From contig JAHIYE010000026.1 in the NCBI GenBank assembly GCA_018815325.1, positions 124,001 through 188,000 of the forward strand: DNA of 64,000 nucleotides, written 5' to 3'. Source of the DNA: Gammaproteobacteria bacterium (GTDB taxonomy: Bacteria > Pseudomonadota > Gammaproteobacteria > Burkholderiales > Burkholderiaceae_C). The translations under genes and the position numbers were made by a program. Under the pieces are notes generated by a model. It did no database searches. It had not been told where the DNA came from and saw nothing but the letters and a program-made list of their open reading frames with translations. Of this stretch, positions 3,981 through 63,643 are shown in pieces; position 1 is the first letter of the stretch, and each line of letters starts with the position of its first letter.

Positions 3981-5462
3981 ATGAATACGATGGCGAGTGA
4001 CGCACTGGATCTGGATCTCGGCCTGGGCTGGCGCAACAGTTTTGCCGCCCTGGGTGAAGATTTCTACACACGGCTTTCGCCCCAGAGCCTGCCCTCCCCC
4101 TATTGGGTCGGCCGCAGCAACAGCCTGGCCGACACACTGGACCTCGATGCCGCCTGGCTGGATTCTCCGGCCTTGCTGGAGGCACTCTCTGGCAACCTCA
4201 AACTCGCAGGCAGTGCGCCACTGGCCAGTGTCTACAGTGGTCATCAGTTCGGCTCGTGGGCAGGTCAGCTGGGCGACGGCCGGGCCATCCTGTTAGGCGA
4301 GACCCGCAAAGGCTTAGAGCTGCAACTCAAGGGTGCAGGCCTGACCCCTTATTCCCGCATGGGCGACGGCCGTGCCGTGCTGCGGTCCAGCATTCGCGAG
4401 TTTCTCTGCAGCGAGGCCATGCATGCCCTGGGTATTCCCACCACCCGCGCCCTGTGCGTCACCGGCTCTGATGCCCCCATACGGCGCGAGCAGATGGAAA
4501 CGGCTGCCGTGGTAACCCGGGTGGCCCCTAGCTTCATCCGCTTTGGCCATTTCGAGCACTTCAGCTACAACGGCCAGCATGCGCAGTTGCGCCAGCTGGC
4601 TGATTACGTCATTGACAGCTTCTATCCCGAGTGCCGAGACACGGACAGGTTTGCAGGCAACCCCTATGCGGCACTGCTCGAAGCCGTCAGCGAACGCACC
4701 GCCGAAATGGTGGCCCAGTGGCAGGCCGTGGGGTTTTGTCACGGTGTCATGAACACCGACAACATGAGCATCCTGGGGCTCACCATCGATTACGGGCCCT
4801 TCCAGTTCCTCGATGCGTTTGACCCAGGCCATATCTGCAACCATTCCGATACGCAAGGCCGCTATGCCTACAACCGCCAGCCCAATATCGCCTACTGGAA
4901 CCTGTTCTGCCTGGGCCAGGCGCTATTGCCATTGATCGAAGACCAGGAGCTCGCGCTGGCTGCCCTGGCGTCTTATAAAACCGTCTTCCCCACGGCGCTG
5001 CAAACACGCATGAGCGCCAAGCTCGGGCTCGTCGGGACCCGGGAGGCAGACAAGGTGCTGATCGAAAACCTGCTCAAGCTGCTGGCCGCCGACCGGGTGG
5101 ACTACAGCATCTTCTGGCGCCGTCTGAGCCATATGGCGCAAGGCGCCCATGCCGACACGGTCCGAGACCTGTTTCTCGACCGGCCCGCCTTTGACGCCTG
5201 GATGCTACAGTATTCAGAGCGAACTCATCATGATGTGAAAGGGCCAGAGTCCGATTTGATGCTCAAGGTCAACCCCAAATTCGTATTGCGAAACCACCTC
5301 GGTGAACAGGCGATCCGGCAGGCGAAACTAAAAGACTTTTCCGGAGTCCACCATCTGCTGGCTTTGCTTGAAACTCCTTACGACGAACACCCGGGCTTCG
5401 AAGCCTATGCCGACTTCCCGCCCGACTGGGCCTCATCCATTGAAATCAGTTGCTCATCATGA
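3981..5462 (+). CDS. selO: Protein adenylyltransferase SelO (YdiU/UPF0061)
   Basis: Pseudokinase-fold enzyme that transfers AMP to Ser/Thr/Tyr of proteins; in E. coli reported targets are linked to redox control. Length 493 aa, normal for bacteria. Visible motifs: [20 protein letters not shown] (83-102), [18 protein letters not shown], the active-site segment CHGVMNTDN (253-261) with IDYGPF following, and the C-terminal CSS that corresponds to the selenocysteine site of animal SelO (here Cys). A GACAAT hexamer lies 8 bases before the ATG and no ribosome-binding site is seen; ATG at 3990 is an alternative start. The stop overlaps the msrB start (ATGA), so the two are translationally coupled. 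Confidence 0.95.
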
Positions 5463-9519: not shown

Positions 9520-12500
9520 TTAGCCCACCCACTGGCGGGCGTTGTGCCAGAGCTGCATCCAGGGACTGGCGGTGCTCAGGTCCTGGTTGGTCCAGCTCAT
9601 CTGGATGTTGCGGAACACGCGCTCAGGGTGCGGCATCATGGCCGTGAAACGGCCGTCGGCCGTGGTGACCGCCGTCAGGCCGCCTGCACTGCCGTTCGGG
9701 TTGAACGGGTAGGCCTCGGTAGCCGCCCCGGTGTTGTCGACAAAGCGCATGGCTGCCATGGCCTGCGCCGCGTTGCCCCGGTAGGCAAAGTTGGCATAGC
9801 CCTCGCCATGCGCCACCGCAATGGGTAGGCGGCTGCCCGCCATGCCCTTGAAAAACAGGCTGGGCGACTCCAGCACCTCCACCATCGACAGGCGTGCCTC
9901 GAAGCGTTCGCTGCGATTGGTGGTGAAGCGCGGCCAGTCCTGTGCCCCGGGAATGATGTCAGCCAGTTCGGCAAACATCTGGCAGCCATTGCACACCCCC
10001 AGACCAAAAGTGTCCTGGCGAGCGAAGAAGGCCTTGAACTGCTCCGCCAGCACCGGGTTAAAGGTGATGGAGCGGGCCCAGCCGATACCGGCCCCCAGGG
10101 TGTCACCGTAGCTGAAGCCTCCACAGGCCACGACGCCCTTGAAGTCCGCCAGCCTGGCGCGACCGCTGTGCAGGTCAGTCATGTGCACGTCATGGGCCTC
10201 AAAGCCCGCCTGGTGGAAGGCATAGGCCATTTCCACATGCGAGTTCACACCCTGCTCGCGCAGTACGGCCACTCTGGGGCGCGTCAGCATGAGCGCCGGA
10301 GCCGTTTGATGTGCTGCAGGATCAAAACTCAGATGCATATGCATGCCCGGGTCATGGTGTGCGCCGGCCGCCGCATGTTCGGCATCTGCACAGACCGGGT
10401 TGTCACGCTGCTGGCAGATCTTCCAGCTGGTGCTGTCCCAGACCTGATGCAGGTCGGCCAGCTTGGCACTGAAGATGGCCTTGGCATCGCGCCAGACCTG
10501 CAGCTCGCCCACTCCAGCCGTGATCTCACTCCCCGCAGGACGGGTCTTGCCAATGAAATGGCTGTGTTTGCTCAGGCCATGCTCGCGCAAGGTCTGCATG
10601 ACTTCACTGCGCTGGGCGGTGCGCACCTGCAGCACCACGCCGAGTTCTTCACTGAACAGGGCCTTGAGGGTGAGTTCCTCACGCCGGGCGCTGACCTGGG
10701 ATGTCCAGTTCTTGCTGTCGCCCATGTCCATGCGGCTGTCGGCAATGCCGTCGCCCTCGGTCACCAGCAGATCCACATTGAGGGCCACGCCCACATGGCC
10801 TGCGAATGCCATTTCGGCCACGGTGGCCAGGAGGCCGCCGTCGCTGCGGTCGTGGTAGGCCAGGATCTTGCCCTGCGCACGCAAGGCGTTCACGGCCTTG
10901 ACCAGATTCACCAGATCCTGCGGATCGTCGAGGTCCGGCACGGTGTCACCCGACTGCCCCAGGGTTTGCGCCAGCATGCTGCCACCCATGCGCTTGCGGC
11001 CCCGGCCCAGGTCGATGAGCACCAGTGTGCTGTCGGGCTCGCTCGCGTCCAGCTGCGGCGTGAGCGTGCCGCGCACATCCGCCAGCGTGGCAAAGGCACT
11101 CACGATCAGGCTCACGGGTGAACTGACCTTGACCTTGTCATCCCCATGCTGCCACTGTGTGCGCATGGACAGGCTGTCCTTGCCCACCGGGATCGAGATA
11201 CCCCAGCGCCGGGCACAGCTCCATGCCGACGGCTTTGACAGTGGCATAGAGCGCGGCGTCTTCGCCAGGATCACCACAGGCAGCCATCCAGTTGGCCGAG
11301 AGCTTGACGCGCGAGAGCTCGATCGGTGCGGCCAGCAGGTTGGTGATGCTCTCTGCCACAGCCATGCGACCCGAAGCCGGTGCATCAAGCGCGGCCAGCG
11401 GCGTACGCTCGCCCATGCTCATGGCCTCGCCGGCAAAACCGGCATAGTCGGCCAGCGTGACGGCACAGTCGGCCACGGGCACCTGCCAGGGGCCCACCAT
11501 CTGGTCACGGTGCGTGAGCCCGCCTACGGTGCGGTCGCCGATGGTGATGAGAAAGCGTTTGGAAGCCACCGTGGGATTGCTCAGGACATCAATCACGGCG
11601 TTCTGCAGTTCCACGCCCGTCAGATCCAGCGGCGGGAACTGGCGCGCAATGGTCTTGACGTCGCGGTGCATCTTGGGTGGCTTGCCCAGCAGCACATCCA
11701 TGGGCATGTCGACCGGACTCTCGTTACCTTCGTCGGCCAGCACCAGTTGCCGCTCTTCGGTGGCCACACCGACCACCGCGAATGGACAGCGCTCGCGCTC
11801 ACAGAAGGCCTTGAACTGTTCGAGCGATTCGGGGCCGATCGCCATCACATAGCGTTCCTGACTTTCGTTGCTCCAGATTTCCTTGGGAGCCAGGCCGCTT
11901 TCCTCAAGCGGCACGGCGCGCAGGTCAAAGCGGGCGCCGCGACCCGCGTCATTGGTCAGCTCGGGAAAGGCGTTGGAAAGTCCGCCCGCGCCAACGTCAT
12001 GGATGGCCAGAATCGGATTCTTCTCACCGAGGGCCCAGCAATGGTTGATGACCTCCTGTGCACGACGCTCGATCTCGGGGTTGCCGCGCTGCACCGAGTC
12101 GAAGTCGAGTTCGGCCGCATTGGCGCCCGTGGCCATGGAGCTGGCGGCGCTCCCGCCCATGCCGATGCGCATGCCCGGGCCGCCGAGCTGGATCAGCAGC
12201 GTGCCGGCCGGAAACGCGATCTTCTGGGTCAGCCCCGCATCGATGACGCCAACACCGCCGGCGATCATGATGGGCTTGTGGTAGCCGCGTCGCAGGCTGT
12301 CGACGTCACTGGCCACGGTCTGTTCGTACTCGCGGAAATAGCCGTTCAGGTTGGGGCGCCCGAATTCGTTGTTGAAGGCCGCGCCGCCGAGCGGGCCTTC
12401 GATCATGATCTGCAGCGGGCTGGCGATGTGCCCGGGCTTGCCGCCGACTTCGTCGGACCAGCCGCCCCAAAGCTTGGACACGGTGAAACCCGTCAGGCCG

Positions 12501-13534
12501 GCTTTGGGCTTGGAGCCACGGCCGGTGGCCCCTTCGTCGCGGATTTCGCCCCCGGCACCGGTGGAGGCACCGGGGAAGGGAGAAATGGCGGTGGGATGGT
12601 TGTGGGTTTCCACCTTCATCAGCACATGATGGGTAGCGCTCTGCTTTTGATAGCTGCTTGCGCTTATCCCTTGAGGGCTGGAGGCCATTTTTGCCACAAA
12701 ACGCTCAACCGGGTTGCCTTCCATGATGGAAGCATTGTCCGAGTAGGCCACGACCGTATGCTGCGGGCTGGTCTGGTGGGTGTGGCGGATCATGCCGAAC
12801 ATGCTCTTGTCCTGCGCCACGCCATCAATGGTGAACTGGGCGTTGAAAATCTTGTGGCGGCAGTGTTCGCTATTGGCCTGCGCGAACATCATGAGCTCGA
12901 CGTCAGTCGGGTTGCGGCCCAGCTCACTGAAGGCCTTGACCAGGTAATCAATTTCGTCATCGGCCAGCGCCAGGCCGAACTGCGTATTGGCCTGCTCCAG
13001 CGCTGTGCGACCGCCTGCCAGGATGTCCACATGCGCCATCGGGGCCGGGTGCAGCTCGGTGAACAGCGCATGGGCCTGCTCCCGCGAGGTCATCGCGCTC
13101 TCCGTCATGCGGTCATGCAGCAGGGCGGCAGTCTGGTCCCATTGTTCGGGCGTGAGGCTGGTCTTGCCCAGCAGGCCTGACTTGAGTGTGAGGCGGTACT
13201 CCACGATGCGCTCCACGCGGTGCACCGCCAGACCGCAGTTGTGGGCGATATCTGTCGCCTTGGAAGCCCAGGGCGAAACCGTGCCCAAGCGCGGCGAAAC
13301 CACAATCAAAGGCCCCTCGGCAGGGCCCGTGTAAGGCTCCCCATAGGTCAACAAGGCCGCCAGCTGGCTTTGCAGGCTGGCGGACGGGGCGCTATCCGAA
13401 ACCACGAGATGAACATATCGGGCATGGATGCCGCTGATCTTGTCGTGGATGGCCTGCAGTCCGGGCAGGAGTTGCTGGACGCGGAAAGCGCTTAAGGCGC
13501 TGCCGCCTTCGAAAGAGGAGATGTGCAGGGTCAC
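9520..13534 (-). pseudogene. purL: Phosphoribosylformylglycinamidine synthase PurL, single-base frameshift
   Basis: Large single-chain FGAM synthase of purine synthesis, 1337 aa if corrected. The N-terminal frame runs from GTG 13534 ([11 protein letters not shown]) through [20 protein letters not shown] and [18 protein letters not shown] to CPALG. The frame is then lost at a run of four C (11201-11204, four G on the coding strand), where three would restore [17 protein letters not shown]. The second frame carries the rest: YHDRSDGGLL, then the glutaminase domain with GVCNGCQM and MMPHPERVF. The total length of 4015 bases is one over a multiple of three. No other lesion is seen and both halves look under normal constraint, so a sequencing error or very recent mutation fits best. 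Confidence 0.93.
12636..12694 (+). repeat. Dispersed repeat copy A (inside purL)
   Basis: Begins GCTCTGCTTTTGATAGCT (12637-12655). Further on are GCGCTT, AGGGCT and GAGGCC, followed by ATTTTTG. It shares register with copy B in prmB: TAGCT, then CGCTT, AGGGCT and AGGC at identical spacing. It is read in frame as part of purL, around residues 280-299. Confidence 0.5.
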
Positions 13535-20051: not shown

Positions 20052-22142
<2,091 letters not shown>

Positions 22143-29033: not shown

Positions 29034-30179
29034 ATGAGCACGATGGAAAGAATCCTTCGTTTGATGAGTGAGAAAAAAGCCTCGGATGTCTATCTGTCGG
29101 CTCACTCGCCCGTGCTCATCCGCATCAACGGCGAATGCGTGCCGATCAACAACCAGACGCTTTCGGCTGAGGCCGTGCGTGGCCTGATTGCCGAGATCAT
29201 GCCGCTCACCAGCATGGAAGAACTGGAGGAAACTGGCGAGCTCAACATCGGCATGCCACTGGCCGGTGTCGGTCGCTTCCGTGTCAGCGCCATGCGGCAA
29301 CGCGGCACTTATGCGGCGGTGATCCGCTTCATTTCGCTCGATATTCCACCGCTCGCCTCGCTCTCCCTGCCGCCCATCCTGAGCGATCTCATCATGGATA
29401 AACGTGGCCTGCTGCTCATGGTCGGCGCCACCGGAGCCGGTAAAAGCACGACGCTGGCCTCCATGATCGATTACCGCAACGAGAACGCCTCGGGTCACAT
29501 TCTGACCATTGAGGACCCGGTGGAGTACCTGTTCAGGAACAAGCGCTCTGTGGTCAACCAGCGTGAAGTCGGGGCCGATACCAAAACGCTCCAGGTGGCC
29601 CTCAAGAACGCGCTGCGGCAAGCCCCGGATGTGATCCTGATCGGTGAAATCCGGGACCGCGAGACCATGTCTTCGGCCATCGCCTATGCCCAGTCCGGCC
29701 ATCTGTGTCTGGCCACGATGCACGCCAACAACAGCTATCAGGCGCTGAACCGGATCCTTAGCTTCTACCCGGTGGAAATACGCCAGACCATGCTGGGCGA
29801 TCTCGCGGCAGCACTCAAGGCGATTGTTTCTCAGCGCCTGCTGCGCACCACTCTCGATGGCCGTACGCCGGCGATGGAGGTGTTGCTCAACACCAAGCTG
29901 ATCGCCGAACTGATCGAAAAAGGCGACTTCTCCGGCGTCAAGGAGGCGATGGAAAAGTCCATGGCCGAAGGATCGCAGACCTTCGAGCAGGACATTGCAC
30001 GGCTGATCGTGAACGGCAGCGTGGAGCGCAAGGAGGGACTGGCCCATGCGGACTCCCCCACCAATCTGATGTGGCGCCTGCAAAACGATTTTTCCAAATC
30101 CATGCTGCCTCCGGCGCAGCAAGACGATGACGACGATCAACCCTCCTTCACCGAAATTTCACTGGATGTGAAGCACTGA
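29034..30179 (+). CDS. pilU: Type IV pilus retraction ATPase PilU/PilT family
   Basis: Hexameric secretion-type ATPase, 381 aa. Walker [10 protein letters not shown] (131-139), Asp box [12 protein letters not shown], Walker [14 protein letters not shown], and His box [11 protein letters not shown]. Residues [20 protein letters not shown] and the acidic C-terminal tail point to PilU rather than PilT. PilU helps PilT drive pilus retraction under load. The gene lies between dapD and dapE, and its stop overlaps the dapE start (TGATG). No pilT is in this window. Confidence 0.88.
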
Positions 30180-31333
30180 TGACTCGTACGCTTTACCTTG
30201 CCGAACAACTGATGGCCTGCGCCTCAGTCACGCCTGAGGATGCGGGCTGCCAGGACATCATTGCGGCGCGGCTGTCGCCTTTGGGCTTTGTCTGCGAAAC
30301 CATCGAAAGCGGGCCCGAAGACTTTCGCGTGCGCAACCTCTGGGCTATACGCAAGGCTCCGTCCGGAGCCACCCCGCCCAAGCTGCTTGTCTTTGCTGGT
30401 CATACCGATGTGGTACCCACGGGGCCGCTGGCGCAATGGAGCAGCGACCCTTTTACCCCCACGCACCGCGACGGCAAGCTGTATGGCCGTGGCGCCAGCG
30501 ACATGAAGACCTCGCTGGCTGCCTTTGTTGTTGCCACCGAGGAGTTCATTGCCGCGCAGCCAGATGCCAGGCTGTCGATCGGTTTCCTCTTGACCAGTGA
30601 CGAGGAAGGCCCCGCCAATGACGGTACTGTGGTGGTCTGCAACACCTTGCGTGAGCGGGGTGAACAGATGGACTTCTGTATCGTGGGCGAGCCCACGTCG
30701 GTACAGCATACCGGCGACATGATCAAAAACGGGCGGCGCGGCACCATGAGCGGCAAGCTGACCGTCAAGGGCATTCAGGGGCATATTGCCTACCCCCACA
30801 TGGCCCGGAACCCGATACACCAGGTGTCGCCGGCCCTGGCGGAGCTCATTACGATCGAGTGGGACAAGGGCAATGCATTCTTCCCCCCCACCAGTTGGCA
30901 AATCAGCAACATCCATGGTGGTACCGGTGCCAGCAACGTGATTCCGGGCACGGTCGTGATCGATTTCAACTTCCGCTTCTCCACTGAGTCCGCGCCAGAG
31001 AGTCTGCAGCAGCGCCTGCAAGCCGTTCTGGACCGGCATGGCCTGGAATATGACCTCAGTTGGACCATCGGCGGCCTGCCCTTTCTCACCACACCGGGCA
31101 CGCTGGTGAATGCGGTACGCGAAGCCATCCAGGACGAGACCGGCCTGCAAACAGAGCTGTCCACCAGCGGCGGTACCAGCGACGGACGCTTCATTGCACA
31201 GGTATGTCCGCAAGTCATCGAGCTGGGTCCACCGAATGCAACGATCCACAAGATTGACGAGCACGTGGAAGTGTCCGAGATCGAGCCCCTGAAGAACATC
31301 TACCGGCGCGTGCTGGAAAAGCTGAGCGCATGA
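30179..31333 (+). CDS. dapE: Succinyl-diaminopimelate desuccinylase
   Basis: M20 metallopeptidase-family enzyme that releases succinate to give LL-diaminopimelate, 384 aa. Zinc-site motifs: [11 protein letters not shown] with the first His/Asp, [21 protein letters not shown] with catalytic Glu pair, and GEPTS. The ATG overlaps the pilU stop, and the gene's own stop overlaps prmB (ATGA). Completes the dapC-dapD-dapE set. Confidence 0.97.
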
Positions 31334-32196
31334 CCATCATTGAACTGATCGAAGCGGGCGCCAGTCAGCTCGCTGGTGCGGGTGTGGCCTTTGGGCACGG
31401 CACGAGCAATGCCTATGACGAAGCTGCCTGGCTTGTGCTGTGGCAATTGGGATTGCCGCTGGATGATCTCGATTCAGTAAAAAACAAGCCTGTAGCCCTT
31501 GAAGATCAAGCGAAGATAGCTACGCTTTTCATAGCGCGCATAGAAACCCGAAAGCCCGCAGCCTACCTGACCCATGAAGCCTGGCTGATGGGCGTGCCCT
31601 TTTACGTGGATGAACGCAGCATCGTTCCCCGCTCCTTCATTGCTGAACTGCTGGCCGATGGCAGCATCGATCCCTGGCTCAGCGAGTCGACCCAGTATGT
31701 ACTCGACCTGTGCACTGGCAACGGCAGTCTTGCGGTGCTGGCAGCCATGACTTATCCGGATGTCAGGGTTGACGCCGCCGACATTTCGGACGATGCGCTG
31801 GCCGTGGCACGCATCAATGTGGCCAAGCATGGCCTGGAAAGTCGCATCACGCTGCTTCAATCCGACGGTCTCGCTTCTGTCAATGGACCCTATGACCTGA
31901 TTTTGTGTAACCCCCCTTATGTCAATGCCCAAAGCATGGCCGACCTGCCAGCAGAATTCCGGGCAGAGCCCGAACTGGCGCTGGCAGGTGGCAGCGACGG
32001 CATGGACTTCATTCGTCAGTTACTTCACGCGGCCCCGGCTCACCTGAGCACAGAGGGCGTGCTGGTGCTGGAAATTGGCAACGAACGAGCCCACTTTGAA
32101 GCCGCCTTCGAGGCGCTGGAAGTGGTCTGGCTTACAACAAGTGCAGGTGAAGACCAGGTATTGCTGGTCACCCGCGAAGCACTCACACATACATGA
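31330..32196 (+). CDS. prmB: 50S ribosomal protein L3 N5-glutamine methyltransferase PrmB
   Basis: SAM-dependent methyltransferase, 288 aa. SAM-binding [12 protein letters not shown] (125-136) and catalytic NPPY (194-197). The segment [23 protein letters not shown] after NPPY is typical of PrmB and separates it from PrmC, which modifies release factors. It overlaps dapE and the next gene by four bases each. Repeat copy B falls at residues 50-69 without changing the expected length. Confidence 0.93.
31479..31536 (-). repeat. Dispersed repeat copy B (inside prmB)
   Basis: Minus-strand reading starts GCTATGAAAAGCGTAGCT. Further on CGCTT, AGGGCT and AGGC occur at the same spacings as in copy A, and a T run follows. 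Locally AT-richer than the rest of prmB. Confidence 0.5.
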
Positions 32197-34195: not shown

Positions 34196-34213
34196 ATTCA
34201 TCATCAGAGCAAG

Positions 34214-34289
34214 TGGTGGGTCCTGACAGATTCGAACTGTCGACCTACGGATTAAGAGTCCGCTGCTCTACCAACTGAGCTAAGAACCC
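34214..34289 (-). tRNA. tRNA-Lys (anticodon CUU)
   Basis: 76 bases with encoded CCA. Acceptor GGGTTCT/AGGACCC with one G-T pair, D arm GCTCAGTTGGTAGAGC, anticodon loop CTCTTAA (C34 U35 U36, A37), and T arm GACAG-TTCGAAT-CTGTC. Reads AAG. It lies 12 bases past the T run of the terminator that follows tRNA-Lys(UUU); no good promoter of its own is visible. Confidence 0.97.
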
Positions 34290-34301
34290 ACTTTATTCTT
34301 T

Positions 34302-34334
34302 AAAAAAAAAGCCACGTGTATTTAAACACATGGC
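34302..34334 (-). terminator. Strong terminator between the two tRNA-Lys genes
   Basis: Minus-strand GCCATGTGT, loop TTAAAT, ACACGTGGC: nine consecutive pairs counting one U-G, followed by T9. Textbook intrinsic terminator, placed after tRNA-Lys(UUU) and before tRNA-Lys(CUU). Confidence 0.9.
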
Positions 34335-34346
34335 ACTCTTAAAAAT

Positions 34347-34422
34347 TGGTGGGACCTGCGGGGGTCGAACCCACGACAAACGGATTAAAAGTCCGCTGCT
34401 CTACCAACTGAGCTAAGGTCCC
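34347..34422 (-). tRNA. tRNA-Lys (anticodon UUU)
   Basis: 76 bases with encoded CCA. Acceptor GGGACCT/AGGTCCC (seven perfect pairs), D arm identical to the neighbouring tRNA-Lys, anticodon loop CTTTTAA (U34 U35 U36, A37), and T arm GTGGG-TTCGACC-CCCGC. Reads AAA and AAG. Its 5' end is 46 bases after the tcdA stop codon. Confidence 0.97.
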
Positions 34423-52287: not shown

Positions 52288-52968
52288 TCAGGCTTTTCGT
52301 GTGCTTGCCTTCTTAGCCGGAGCTTTAGTGCTTTTCTTGGCCGGCGGCTTGGTCGCCATGACCTTGACTGTCTTCACGGGGCTTTTGGCTGGCGCCTTCC
52401 CGGAGGCCGTCTTTTTAGCCGGCACTTTTTTGCTGGCAGGTGTTTTCGTTGCCGCTGTTTTCTTTAACTGGGCTTTTGAGGGGAAAGCGTCGGCCACACC
52501 TTTTTTGGCAGCATTCGAACGCTTGAGGCTACCCGAAGACTTGGCCTCTTCTTTGGCGCTTGCGGCTGGCTTGGTTGCAGATTTCGCTGCCGGCTTGTCC
52601 GCACCGAGCTTCAGGCGCACAGGTTTTTCACCCCACAACTCTTCCAGATGGTAATACTGGCGAATACTGGGCTGCATGATGTGCACGACCGCCTGGCCGC
52701 AATCCACGATGATCCATTCACCGTTTTCCTCGCCTTCGATGCGGGGTTTCGCAAAGCCCGCATCGCGTACGGCATCGCGCACACTGGCTGCCAGCGCCTT
52801 GGTCTGACGGTTCGAAGTGCCCGACGCGACGACCACCCGCTCAAACAAGGCCGTCAGGTGCTCGGTGTTAAACACCTGGATATCCTGCGCCTTCACGTCC
52901 TCCAGACCATCGACAATGGCTCGCTGGAGTTTCTGGGTATCTTTAGTGGCTGTGGTGTCTGTATTCAT
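52288..52968 (-). CDS. rsfS: Ribosomal silencing factor RsfS with Lys/Ala/Pro-rich tail
   Basis: 226 aa, about twice the usual 105-120. Residues 12-120 form the RsfS domain (IVDGLEDVKAQDIQVFNT, GEENGEWIIVDCGQAVVHIM, YYHLEELWGEKP), which binds L14 and blocks subunit joining in starvation. The remaining ~100 residues are low complexity with repeated PAKK/APAK units like histone H1 tails, probably disordered and nucleic acid-binding. The ATG at 52968 overlaps the nadD stop (TGATG). Confidence 0.94.
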   Translation of the reverse strand: MNTDTTATKDTQKLQRAIVDGLEDVKAQDIQVFNTEHLTALFERVVVASGTSNRQTKALAASVRDAVRDAGFAKPRIEGEENGEWIIVDCGQAVVHIMQPSIRQYYHLEELWGEKPVRLKLGADKPAAKSATKPAASAKEEAKSSGSLKRSNAAKKGVADAFPSKAQLKKTAATKTPASKKVPAKKTASGKAPAKSPVKTVKVMATKPPAKKSTKAPAKKASTRKA

Positions 52969-53582
52969 CAAGCGGTCTGGTAAAGGTGATGGTGAGCAAT
53001 ATAACGCGCAACGGGCTCCGCAACCAGTGTGCCGACGTCCTGTCGGGCAGCCAGTCGGCTGCGGATATCTGTTGCGCTGATGGGCATGAAAGGCATTTGC
53101 AACAGCAGATAACGCGACTCGAGCCCGGCAGGGGGGCTAAATTGCGGCATTCCCCTTGTCAATTCTTGGCGTTCAGCTACACAAATTATAGCAAGTCGGG
53201 GGATTTCCCGCCATTCATGCCAATTGGGAAGTGCATTGGCCTGATCAGCACCAATCACCAAAAATAGTTCGGCATGGGGCTGTTCTGCCTTGATTTCACG
53301 CAATGTATCCAGCGTATAGCTGGGGCCGGCACGCAAAGTCTCACGAGGGTCCACGACCGCCCCCGGCACATCAGAGAACGCGAGCTCCGCCATGGCCAGT
53401 CGATACGGTGCGGGGGTGAGTTGCCGCGTCTTGTGCCAGGCCTGGCCGGTCGGGATGACCCTGACTTCATCAAGCTGCAATTGCTCGACGGCAGCCTCCA
53501 GCAAGGCCCGATGGGCAGCATGCGGCGGATCGAACGCGCCGCCAAAAATGCCCAGCCGTTTGGAGCCGGCGGTCAAACCCAC
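52968..53582 (-). CDS. nadD: Nicotinate-nucleotide adenylyltransferase
   Basis: Forms deamido-NAD from nicotinate mononucleotide and ATP, 204 aa. [18 protein letters not shown] with the HxxH nucleotidyltransferase motif, [19 protein letters not shown], and C-terminal [11 protein letters not shown]. The start is a GTG (53582) inside the last codons of hemF, or a TTG two codons later. A short repeat copy lies near residues 130-136. Confidence 0.95.
53175..53195 (-). repeat. Dispersed repeat copy D (inside nadD)
   Basis: Minus-strand GCTATAATTTGTGTAGCT, 18 bases, 13 of which match the left end of copy B at the same positions. It is read in frame and is AT-rich against its surroundings. Confidence 0.4.
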
Positions 53583-62709: not shown

Positions 62710-62816
62710 GGTGAAATTGATAGCTTGATAATGGTGGTCAGCGACCCGGTGTGCCACAGAATGAGCACCATCACTGCATCCTAATTCAATTACAAACCCC
62801 TGATCGGAGAAGCAAC

Positions 62817-63587
62817 ATGCTAAAAGGCAAAACCGCCCTCGTTACCGGATCCACCAGCGGCATTGGACTCGGTATTGCCAAGTCACTGGCACGCCAGGGC
62901 GCCAATATTGTGCTCAACGGCTTTGGGGACATCGATGCGCCCAAGGCCGCAATTGCCGGACTCGGCGTCAAAGTTGCGTACCACGGTGCCGACATGAGCA
63001 AGCCCTCCGAGATTGCAGACATGATGGCCTTTGCCGCCAGCGAGATGGGGCGCGTGGACATTCTGGTCAACAACGCTGGCATCCAGCACGTGGCGCGCAT
63101 CGAGTCGTTCCCCGTAGACAAATGGGATGCCATCATCGCCATCAACCTCTCCAGCGCCTTCCATGCCACCCGTCTGGCCCTGCCCGCCATGCAGGCGGCC
63201 AACTGGGGCCGCATCATCAACGTGGCCTCAGCCCATGGCCTGGTCGGTTCGCCTGAAAAATCGGCCTATGTCGCTGCCAAGCATGGCATCGTGGGCCTGA
63301 CCAAGGTGACGGCGCTGGAAAATGCCACCAGTGGAGTGACCTGCAATGCCATCTGCCCCGGCTGGGTGCTGACGCCACTGGTTCAAAAGCAGGTGGATGC
63401 CAGGGCAGTTGCCCAGGGCATCTCCAATGAAGAGGCCCAAAAGCAGTTGCTCGGCGAGAAAGAGCCTTCCATGCAATTCACCACGCCCGAGGAACTGGGC
63501 GAACTCGCGGTCTTCTTCTGTTCACCCGCTGGCAACAATGTTCGCGGTGTGGCCTGGAATATGGATGGTGGCTGGGTTGCTCAGTAA
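62817..63587 (+). CDS. bdhA: 3-hydroxybutyrate dehydrogenase (short-chain dehydrogenase)
   Basis: NAD-dependent oxidation of D-3-hydroxybutyrate to acetoacetate, 256 aa. Cofactor loop TGSTSGIGLGIA (about 9-20), NNAG, catalytic SAY...K in SAYVAAKHG, with Ser in NVASAHG. NIVLNGFGD after the first strand is characteristic of this dehydrogenase. GGAGAAG precedes ATG 62817. Points to polyhydroxybutyrate metabolism, common in the suggested family. Confidence 0.93.
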   Translation: MLKGKTALVTGSTSGIGLGIAKSLARQGANIVLNGFGDIDAPKAAIAGLGVKVAYHGADMSKPSEIADMMAFAASEMGRVDILVNNAGIQHVARIESFPVDKWDAIIAINLSSAFHATRLALPAMQAANWGRIINVASAHGLVGSPEKSAYVAAKHGIVGLTKVTALENATSGVTCNAICPGWVLTPLVQKQVDARAVAQGISNEEAQKQLLGEKEPSMQFTTPEELGELAVFFCSPAGNNVRGVAWNMDGGWVAQ

Positions 63588-63625: not shown

Positions 63626-63643
63626 GCTACGAAAACAATAGCA
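63626..63643 (+). repeat. Dispersed repeat copy E (intergenic)
   Basis: GCTACGAAAACAATAGCA, in the same 18-base register as the left ends of copies A-D, close to copy B. Further right, GGCTGGCTGGCC is vaguely like the GGGCTGGAGGCC of copy A. The rest of the 186-base gap shows only a weak GGCGCA/TGCGCC hairpin at 63716-63732. Confidence 0.4.

Follow-up and report, generated by a model that had tools for sequence, protein, structure and literature searches.

Short segments that share one left end in identical register, lying in frame inside the essential genes purL, prmB, ligA and nadD and at one supposedly intergenic site (63626), were noticed in the initial annotation of the 64,000-nucleotide stretch analysed here (the window), and they raise the question of what kind of DNA can be written into such genes. 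A matrix scan of the window placed six sites in one register, these five and one in selO that the annotation had missed. With both matrices described below the five were indeed members of one family, which aligns without gaps over about 65 bp, and their in-frame presence inside essential genes was borne out. Four of them lie in genes as claimed; the site at 63626 extends over the final 11 bases of a predicted gene. Family models confirmed the identities of purL, ligA, nadD, prmB and selO. Copies and genes are as follows, with bit scores for the first and the second matrix.

12635..12703, + strand: purL copy (host gene on the - strand), from 12636 reading TTGATAGCTGCTTGCGCTTATCCCTTGAGGGCTGGAGGCCATTTTT; 69.8 and 51.7 bits
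31470..31538, - strand: degenerate prmB copy (gene on the + strand); 34.5 and 41.9 bits
21262..21330, + strand: degenerate ligA copy (gene 20052-22124, - strand); 19.8 and 40.6 bits
53127..53195, - strand: decayed nadD copy (gene 52968-53582, - strand); 12.1 and 26.7 bits
63577..63645, - strand: decayed copy at the 3' end of a 3-hydroxybutyrate dehydrogenase-like gene (62751-63587, + strand); 9.4 and 24.2 bits
5201..5269, + strand: selO copy, on the same strand as its gene (3981-5462, + strand); 30.4 and 43.6 bits
9520..13534, - strand: purL host gene, as two overlapping open frames (11138-13534 and 9520-11388)
31330..32196, + strand: prmB host gene, the copy corresponding to residues 48-69
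30179..31333, + strand: dapE, without a copy in the window; many relatives carry one in a dapE loop

The split purL frame in the window is either an assembly error or a real frame break. A single open frame of at least 1,285 codons spans the match in 34 of 38 genomes, the exceptions being the window's own genome (G000), G014, G008 and G033.

Copies and family consensus

Copies were collected with a 19-base pattern derived from the copy in purL. With at most three mismatches it matched the purL copy alone in the window and 39 places in the own genome (16 + 23), as compared with 3 for the backward control. Thirty of the 39 matches were fetched as loci and 9 were left out; 5 of the 30 (L014, L021, L022, L025, L029) were dropped before the matrix was made because by eye they matched the short pattern only. 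The first matrix thus consists of 25 own-genome copies, including the purL copy and none of the other five window sites; the second was refined on about 35 copies of another contig. The 25 copies align without any gap over 69 columns, which range from invariant to random, with the consensus GCTA(T/C)nnATTTGATAGCTGCTnGCGCTT, seven weak columns, AAGGGCTnGAGGCCnATTT, seven weak columns and AA. A rough consensus of about 65 bp reads TTGCTAYnnATTTGATAGCTGCTnGCGCTTnTnnnnnAAGSGCTnGAGGCCnATTTn7AA.

Scanning 400 kb of a single contig with the first matrix turned up 29 sites of at least 15 bits; its reversed form and 20 column-shuffled versions gave no such site. In 464 kb, at every threshold from 4 to 15, the reversed first matrix gave no match and 30 column shuffles gave a mean of 0.00-0.10 and at most 1, and the second matrix gave no match at 15 or above with reversed and shuffled controls. 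A profile built from the copies and scanned against such controls therefore yielded almost no control matches at these scores, with the caveat that the matrices were refined on their own matches.

A calibrated sequence-only model returned the window copies in purL (1.5e-16), prmB (5e-6), selO (2e-4) and ligA (0.016) and, at the 3'-end site, the left end alone (E 0.9); the nadD copy was absent from its matches in the window. It is thus the whole-length matrices that back the nadD and 3'-end sites as decayed copies. The claim that the segments are AT-richer than their hosts agreed with the GC content of the four copies measured (0.45-0.52, against 0.60-0.65 in the 1-kb flanks). In the PrmB model (mean pLDDT 87.7) residues 48-69 cover a loop and the start of helix 57-73. 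Elsewhere in the window, at 34211-34422, two similar 79-base sequences lie 133 bases apart and look tRNA-gene-like by eye.

Spread among genomes and position relative to genes

Refined scans gave 35 copies per 400 kb in the own genome, 109 in G014 and 89 in G009; numbers per genome, extrapolated from these 400 kb, are about 340, about 1,180 and about 820, respectively. No strand preference was observed (+/-: 16/19, 57/52 and 42/47). In all three genomes the conserved columns span about 65 bp and the copies are interspersed, with a mean GC content of 0.42-0.49. Lineages have their own dialects of the element: AAGGGC prevails in the own genome, whereas G014 mostly has AAGCGC and G009 GCGC.

When 40 sampled genomes were searched with a sequence-only model of the 25 copies (E 0.001), the family was found in 12. 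All of them belong to the Comamonadaceae, the group named in the initial annotation, and make up half of the 24 genomes sampled from this bacterial family; none of the 16 genomes outside it matched. Counts per genome reached at least 127, and two bearing genomes had 6 only. A second set of 16 genomes, G014 and 15 more species of a single genus, included 12 that matched, with counts from 0 to at least 150.

The purL copy was present in 12 of 12 family-bearing genomes and in none of 18 others (purL loci were fetched for 30 of 38 genomes, the 8 left out all being from outside the bacterial family). A purL tree built without the loop, whose inner support is modest (9 of 27 inner branches are open), places five copy-free genomes between bearing ones. 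It requires no fewer than 4 changes, and a single clade of bearing genomes is rejected (AU p 0.00012). For the prmB copy, a quickly built prmB tree implies 11 changes. In the genus of G013, copies were found in G013 and G057, and five other species gave no match of at least 22 bits in about 238 kb of partly overlapping loci. Judged from these sequences, the whole family appears to be lost together in lineages, and the presence/absence pattern is most simply read as an ancient origin followed by repeated loss of a component required by all sites.

A survey of 233 copies in three 400-kb stretches, 83-89% of which is predicted coding sequence, placed 129 copies between genes, 48 over gene ends and 56 inside predicted genes; some of these 'inside' genes may be false, since the gene calls come from a codon-usage picker and not from annotation. 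Inside genes, 28 copies are sense and 28 antisense, antisense frame 2 being the commonest (22 of 56, reading roughly KNQAPALDEYAQAAINSIA) and sense frame 0 occurring in 14. An earlier survey of 45 copies, with genes called in the same way, had 15 inside genes, 13 of them antisense and 11 in one frame; it drew the best-scoring own-genome copies, and the larger survey is less one-sided. Family models gave names to some of the host genes, among them dapF, pgi, gluQ, tilS, gcvP and genes for a heptosyltransferase and a carboxyltransferase.

Outside genes, convergent gene pairs were over-represented at copies (own genome 11 of 22, G014 21 of 85, G009 23 of 69) relative to background gaps (36 of 245, 44 of 244 and 49 of 252, respectively), with the smallest excess in G014. 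The first 400 kb of one G009 contig (C1:1-400000) hold eight pairs of copies in opposite orientation, with a fixed offset of 41 bp and overlapping right parts. Gaps between copies were more even than random in the own genome (CV 0.65, p 0.003), not in G014 and G009, and no strand switch along the chromosome was seen for 73 G014 copies; even spacing and replication polarity were rejected on these grounds. At 978-1267 of locus L017, near an element copy, lies a strong Rfam match to the 5' ureB small RNA (102 bits).

Conservation, insertion and overwriting

On balance, and with little to spare in confidence, we take the element to be a recognition site in double-stranded DNA, about 65 bp long and spread genome-wide, that is read by a putative trans-acting factor. 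This reading draws on the way in which single letters are conserved. In copies inside genes, third-codon identity in high-information columns was 0.72 for prmB (24 taxa), 0.68 for dapE (26) and 0.70 for purL (12), and in low-information columns 0.35, 0.35 and 0.34, which is near random; flanking third positions gave 0.43-0.61, 0.46-0.49 and 0.52-0.69, respectively. The high-column values of prmB and dapE are inflated, since these orthologues were chosen by motif score; the purL orthologues were not, and they offer 7 high-information third positions only, next to one flank of 0.69. GC3 of the prmB copy was 0.35, as compared with 0.81 in the flanks and 0.83 in the same columns of copy-free orthologues. 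Given the same residue, prmB codon identity was 0.71 inside the copy and 0.59 outside it in bearing genes, and 0.51 and 0.61 in copy-free genes. The AT-rich codons of orthologous copies persist against a GC-rich codon bias.

Between G013 and G057, which belong to one genus, five site pairs were identical at 129 of 140 high columns, 71 of 100 low columns and 230 of 293 flank positions (high vs low, Fisher p 2e-5); a sixth pair gave no single alignment and was left out. Within one genome the identity to the consensus ranged from about 0.3 to 1.0 per column, with dispersion values (chi2/df) of 22, 15 and 6, where even decay predicts about 1 and motif-based copy collection adds some. Such uneven columns argue against an evenly decaying repeat. 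The word repeat, used initially, is right in that the family is real, but it tells only part of the story: conservation of particular columns speaks for a DNA site that is maintained.

A selfish non-autonomous mobile repeat, of the kind of Rickettsia palindromic elements or MITEs, is the first alternative to be weighed; it would insert in frame in loops and then decay, and the column differences would reflect transposase needs and biased copy collection. We regard it as rather unlikely. Residue gains at copies are in its favour. ParB of G014 has 18 extra residues exactly at the copy relative to solved ParB chains, DapF is 10-11 residues longer there, and PurL about 7 residues longer than solved PurL chains, which we take to be those of Salmonella. 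GluQRS exceeds its family profile by 21 residues, its copy region not aligning to solved relatives. In DapE, the loop reads NLWAKRPGRSGRT in a copy-free relative and NLWAKRPLALDTQAQKAIKT in an Acidovorax, and the Xenophilus-type protein has a different, longer insertion of about 22-24 residues (by eye) in the same loop, which in other genera holds a shorter version. Where 18 or more residues are gained, the change resembles mobile DNA and counts against a recognition site. The patchy distribution and the roughly one copy per unit in tandem DUF1010 arrays (see below) also favour the selfish repeat.

Other copies are length-neutral. No length change was found at the copy among 80 PrmB orthologues, whose only variation nearby is in the preceding loop, by as many as 8 residues, in copy-bearing and copy-free proteins alike; LigA aligns gap-free over the copy to a solved LigA (2owo, presumably the E. 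coli protein), and profile matches of pgi, tilS and gcvP showed no clear extra length. The element thus both inserts and overwrites, and the early claim of unchanged protein length, made for prmB and ligA, holds for both but does not extend to PurL, ParB, DapF and GluQRS.

Apart from the uneven columns and the key letters that old orthologous copies keep against codon bias, the selfish repeat is opposed by the sharing of all three G013/G057 sites that could be compared on both sides (flank identity 82-94%), and by the Y1 transposase: among the family members searched, all 9 bearing ones and 5 of the 6 non-bearing ones had it, and the 3.3-kb locus of the single Y1 gene in the own genome is free of copies. 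No clear polymorphic site emerged when two 20-kb queries were compared with six species of that genus, and in one intergenic filled/empty comparison for a target site duplication the flanks were too diverged to define the ends. RAYT transposition in particular was unsupported, with Y1 in 19 of 24 genomes, bearing or not. G014 has twenty matches to PF01797 (IS200-like Y1 transposase), the other 14 family members searched having 0 or 1. Column-specific constraint together with concerted presence and absence therefore favours a DNA site over a decaying selfish repeat.

An element acting at the RNA level, as a terminator, small-RNA target or mRNA stability signal, is improbable. It would suit the inverted repeats in the consensus, the excess of convergent pairs and the eight inverted overlapping pairs in 400 kb of G009, but covariation showed no overall excess (pairing 73.4% vs 73.1% shuffled), copies between co-directional genes were in gene sense in 52 cases and antisense in 46, and inside genes both strands are used equally. 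In the three genomes only isolated pairs exceeded the shuffles, namely two base pairs, columns 25/45 (G014) and 22/48 (own genome), a point against the DNA-site reading. RNAalifold yielded 2 pairs only, Rfam gave no match at the copies in the 8 loci searched, and a two-hairpin drawing, being without covariation excess, was rejected. Ordinary conserved coding sequence or chance resemblance, which would fit the unchanged length of the prmB and ligA proteins, has next to no likelihood, being refuted by the near-zero null counts of the genome-wide scan, by the 177 of 233 copies not inside genes and by copy-free orthologues, which exist for both purL and prmB (of 81 prmB sequences including that of the window, 24 carry the copy at 11-42 bits, 51 score below -25 at its place and 6 lie between).

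Recognition of the site by a trans-acting DNA-binding factor is what we infer from the maintained letters. In a lineage with the factor, selection or molecular drive would hold the key letters; once the factor was lost, all sites would decay together. Coding copies would persist where the protein tolerates the encoded residues. The favoured job would be uptake-signal-like, in that preferred recombination of motif-bearing DNA would refresh sites and overwrite host codons; next in rank would be a chromosome-organising binding site. Insertion alone fails to explain the conservation, and recognition by the putative factor would explain it. A search for the reading factor found none; ComEC was present in 18 of 19 genomes tested, bearing or not, and competence machinery as judged by ComEC is thus not discriminating. 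At 65 bp the element is long for a binding site and longer than the uptake motifs known.

Plasmids, known systems and meaning

Plasmid records matching the 69-base consensus numbered 1,761, most of them named as Escherichia, Klebsiella or Salmonella; a second consensus matched 1,752, and among phage records there was one match, a Salmonella record. Of the best 30 of the 1,761 matches, 21 fall within a gene annotated as DUF1010, and Comamonadaceae plasmids account for 5. A Diaphorobacter plasmid had 2 copies in 150 of its 242 kb, as compared with 89 in 400 kb of a Diaphorobacter-like genome; plasmid and chromosome are from different strains, so recent acquisition could explain the low plasmid count. 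The element is also present in pCTX-M3 (53-62 bits with three matrices), within a cassette that has dfrA12 on one side and aadA2 on the other:

L294 552-842, - strand: DUF1010 cassette gene of pCTX-M3, between dfrA12 and aadA2

In its 96-residue protein the element corresponds to residues 30-52 and Pfam DUF1010 (PF06231) to residues 31-96. The first part of DUF1010 in this protein is the element translated in one frame, whereas Pfam treats DUF1010 as a protein family. That the cassette holds a chromosomal repeat hints at its origin in the Comamonadaceae. Tandem DUF1010 units near contig starts of G009 (C4:435-1393 and C12:521-1651, the latter in locus L297) look like possible integron cassette arrays; L297 has four element copies, suggesting about one per unit. 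DUF1010 is not strictly the same as the element, since two of the nine genomes with DUF1010 matches (G015 and G031) are free of the family, the other seven bearing it, and the DUF1010 locus of G015 has no copy.

Rickettsia palindromic elements are short hairpin-forming palindromes found in frame in protein genes of intracellular bacteria. The present element resembles them in its in-frame insertion (18 residues in ParB, about 7 in PurL) and differs in the lack of a hairpin, in column-specific constraint and in length-neutral copies. Uptake sequences of Neisseria and Pasteurellaceae are linked to DNA uptake, measure 10-30 bp, and number hundreds to thousands of copies, strand-symmetric and placed within genes as well as between them, with dialects and with inverted pairs near gene ends. 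High copy number, strands near 1:1, location in and between genes, dialects and inverted pairs are likewise features of the element, and by this analogy it may have a role in uptake; unlike uptake sequences, it is about 65 bp long, has no short core of about 10 bp and includes insertions.

REP/RAYT repeats, tagged GTAG or CGTC (PMC3733652), are similarly numerous and mostly extragenic near gene ends, with some in ORFs. The element is set apart by its greater length and by a Y1 gene that is neither flanked by copies nor tracks them; Acidovorax, Polaromonas, Delftia, Comamonas and Rhodoferax are not named in the text of that article. Copies of the beta-proteobacterial repeat element BRE, reported from Polaromonas, Acidovorax, Rhodoferax and Delftia, with some in genes, are by the available description 75-91 bp long with 69% GC in Bordetella, form tandem arrays and number 1-29 copies per listed genome (PMC3110155); length, GC content and interspersed position distinguish the element from BRE so described. 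In the passages of PMC2755013 on repeats, CRISPR alone is mentioned.

No described family could be named in the initial annotation, and none was found for the whole element in the literature searched, but its core had already been printed, unnamed and unexplained: in Acidovorax ebreus TPSY the motif pair GCTTAT(N)5AAGCG is listed as a potential novel motif (PMC5217627, Table 7), with 114 copies, 107 of them intergenic and 44 between convergent genes. Its letters and spacing equal element columns 28-43. The A. ebreus section of that article gives the core only, with no full element, family, in-frame insertion or function. A Polaromonas pair in the same article, ATAGCT(N)22CAAAAG, has ATAGCT in common with the element and a different spacing. 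Searches of literature listings on Comamonadaceae repeats, RAYT, Rickettsia palindromic elements, uptake sequences and DUF1010 turned up no account of the complete element, of copies lying in frame or of a connection with DUF1010.

The element is a real, large, old and constrained DNA motif, and its job is inferred. More tentatively, it may represent a new class of long (about 65 bp) genome-wide signal, with lineage dialects and a factor lost several times in the Comamonadaceae, written into essential proteins by insertion and length-neutral overwriting. Part of DUF1010 is the translation of a repeat, and a common integron cassette bears an apparent chromosomal mark of the Comamonadaceae. If read by a factor, the signal would take up as much as roughly 1.8% of a genome (1,180 copies of 65 bp by extrapolation, in 4.3 Mb) and would have changed the sequences of core proteins, among them ParB, PurL, DapE and PrmB. 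Lineages that appear to have lost the family would then serve as natural controls, and comparing the gene content of near relatives could reveal the factor.
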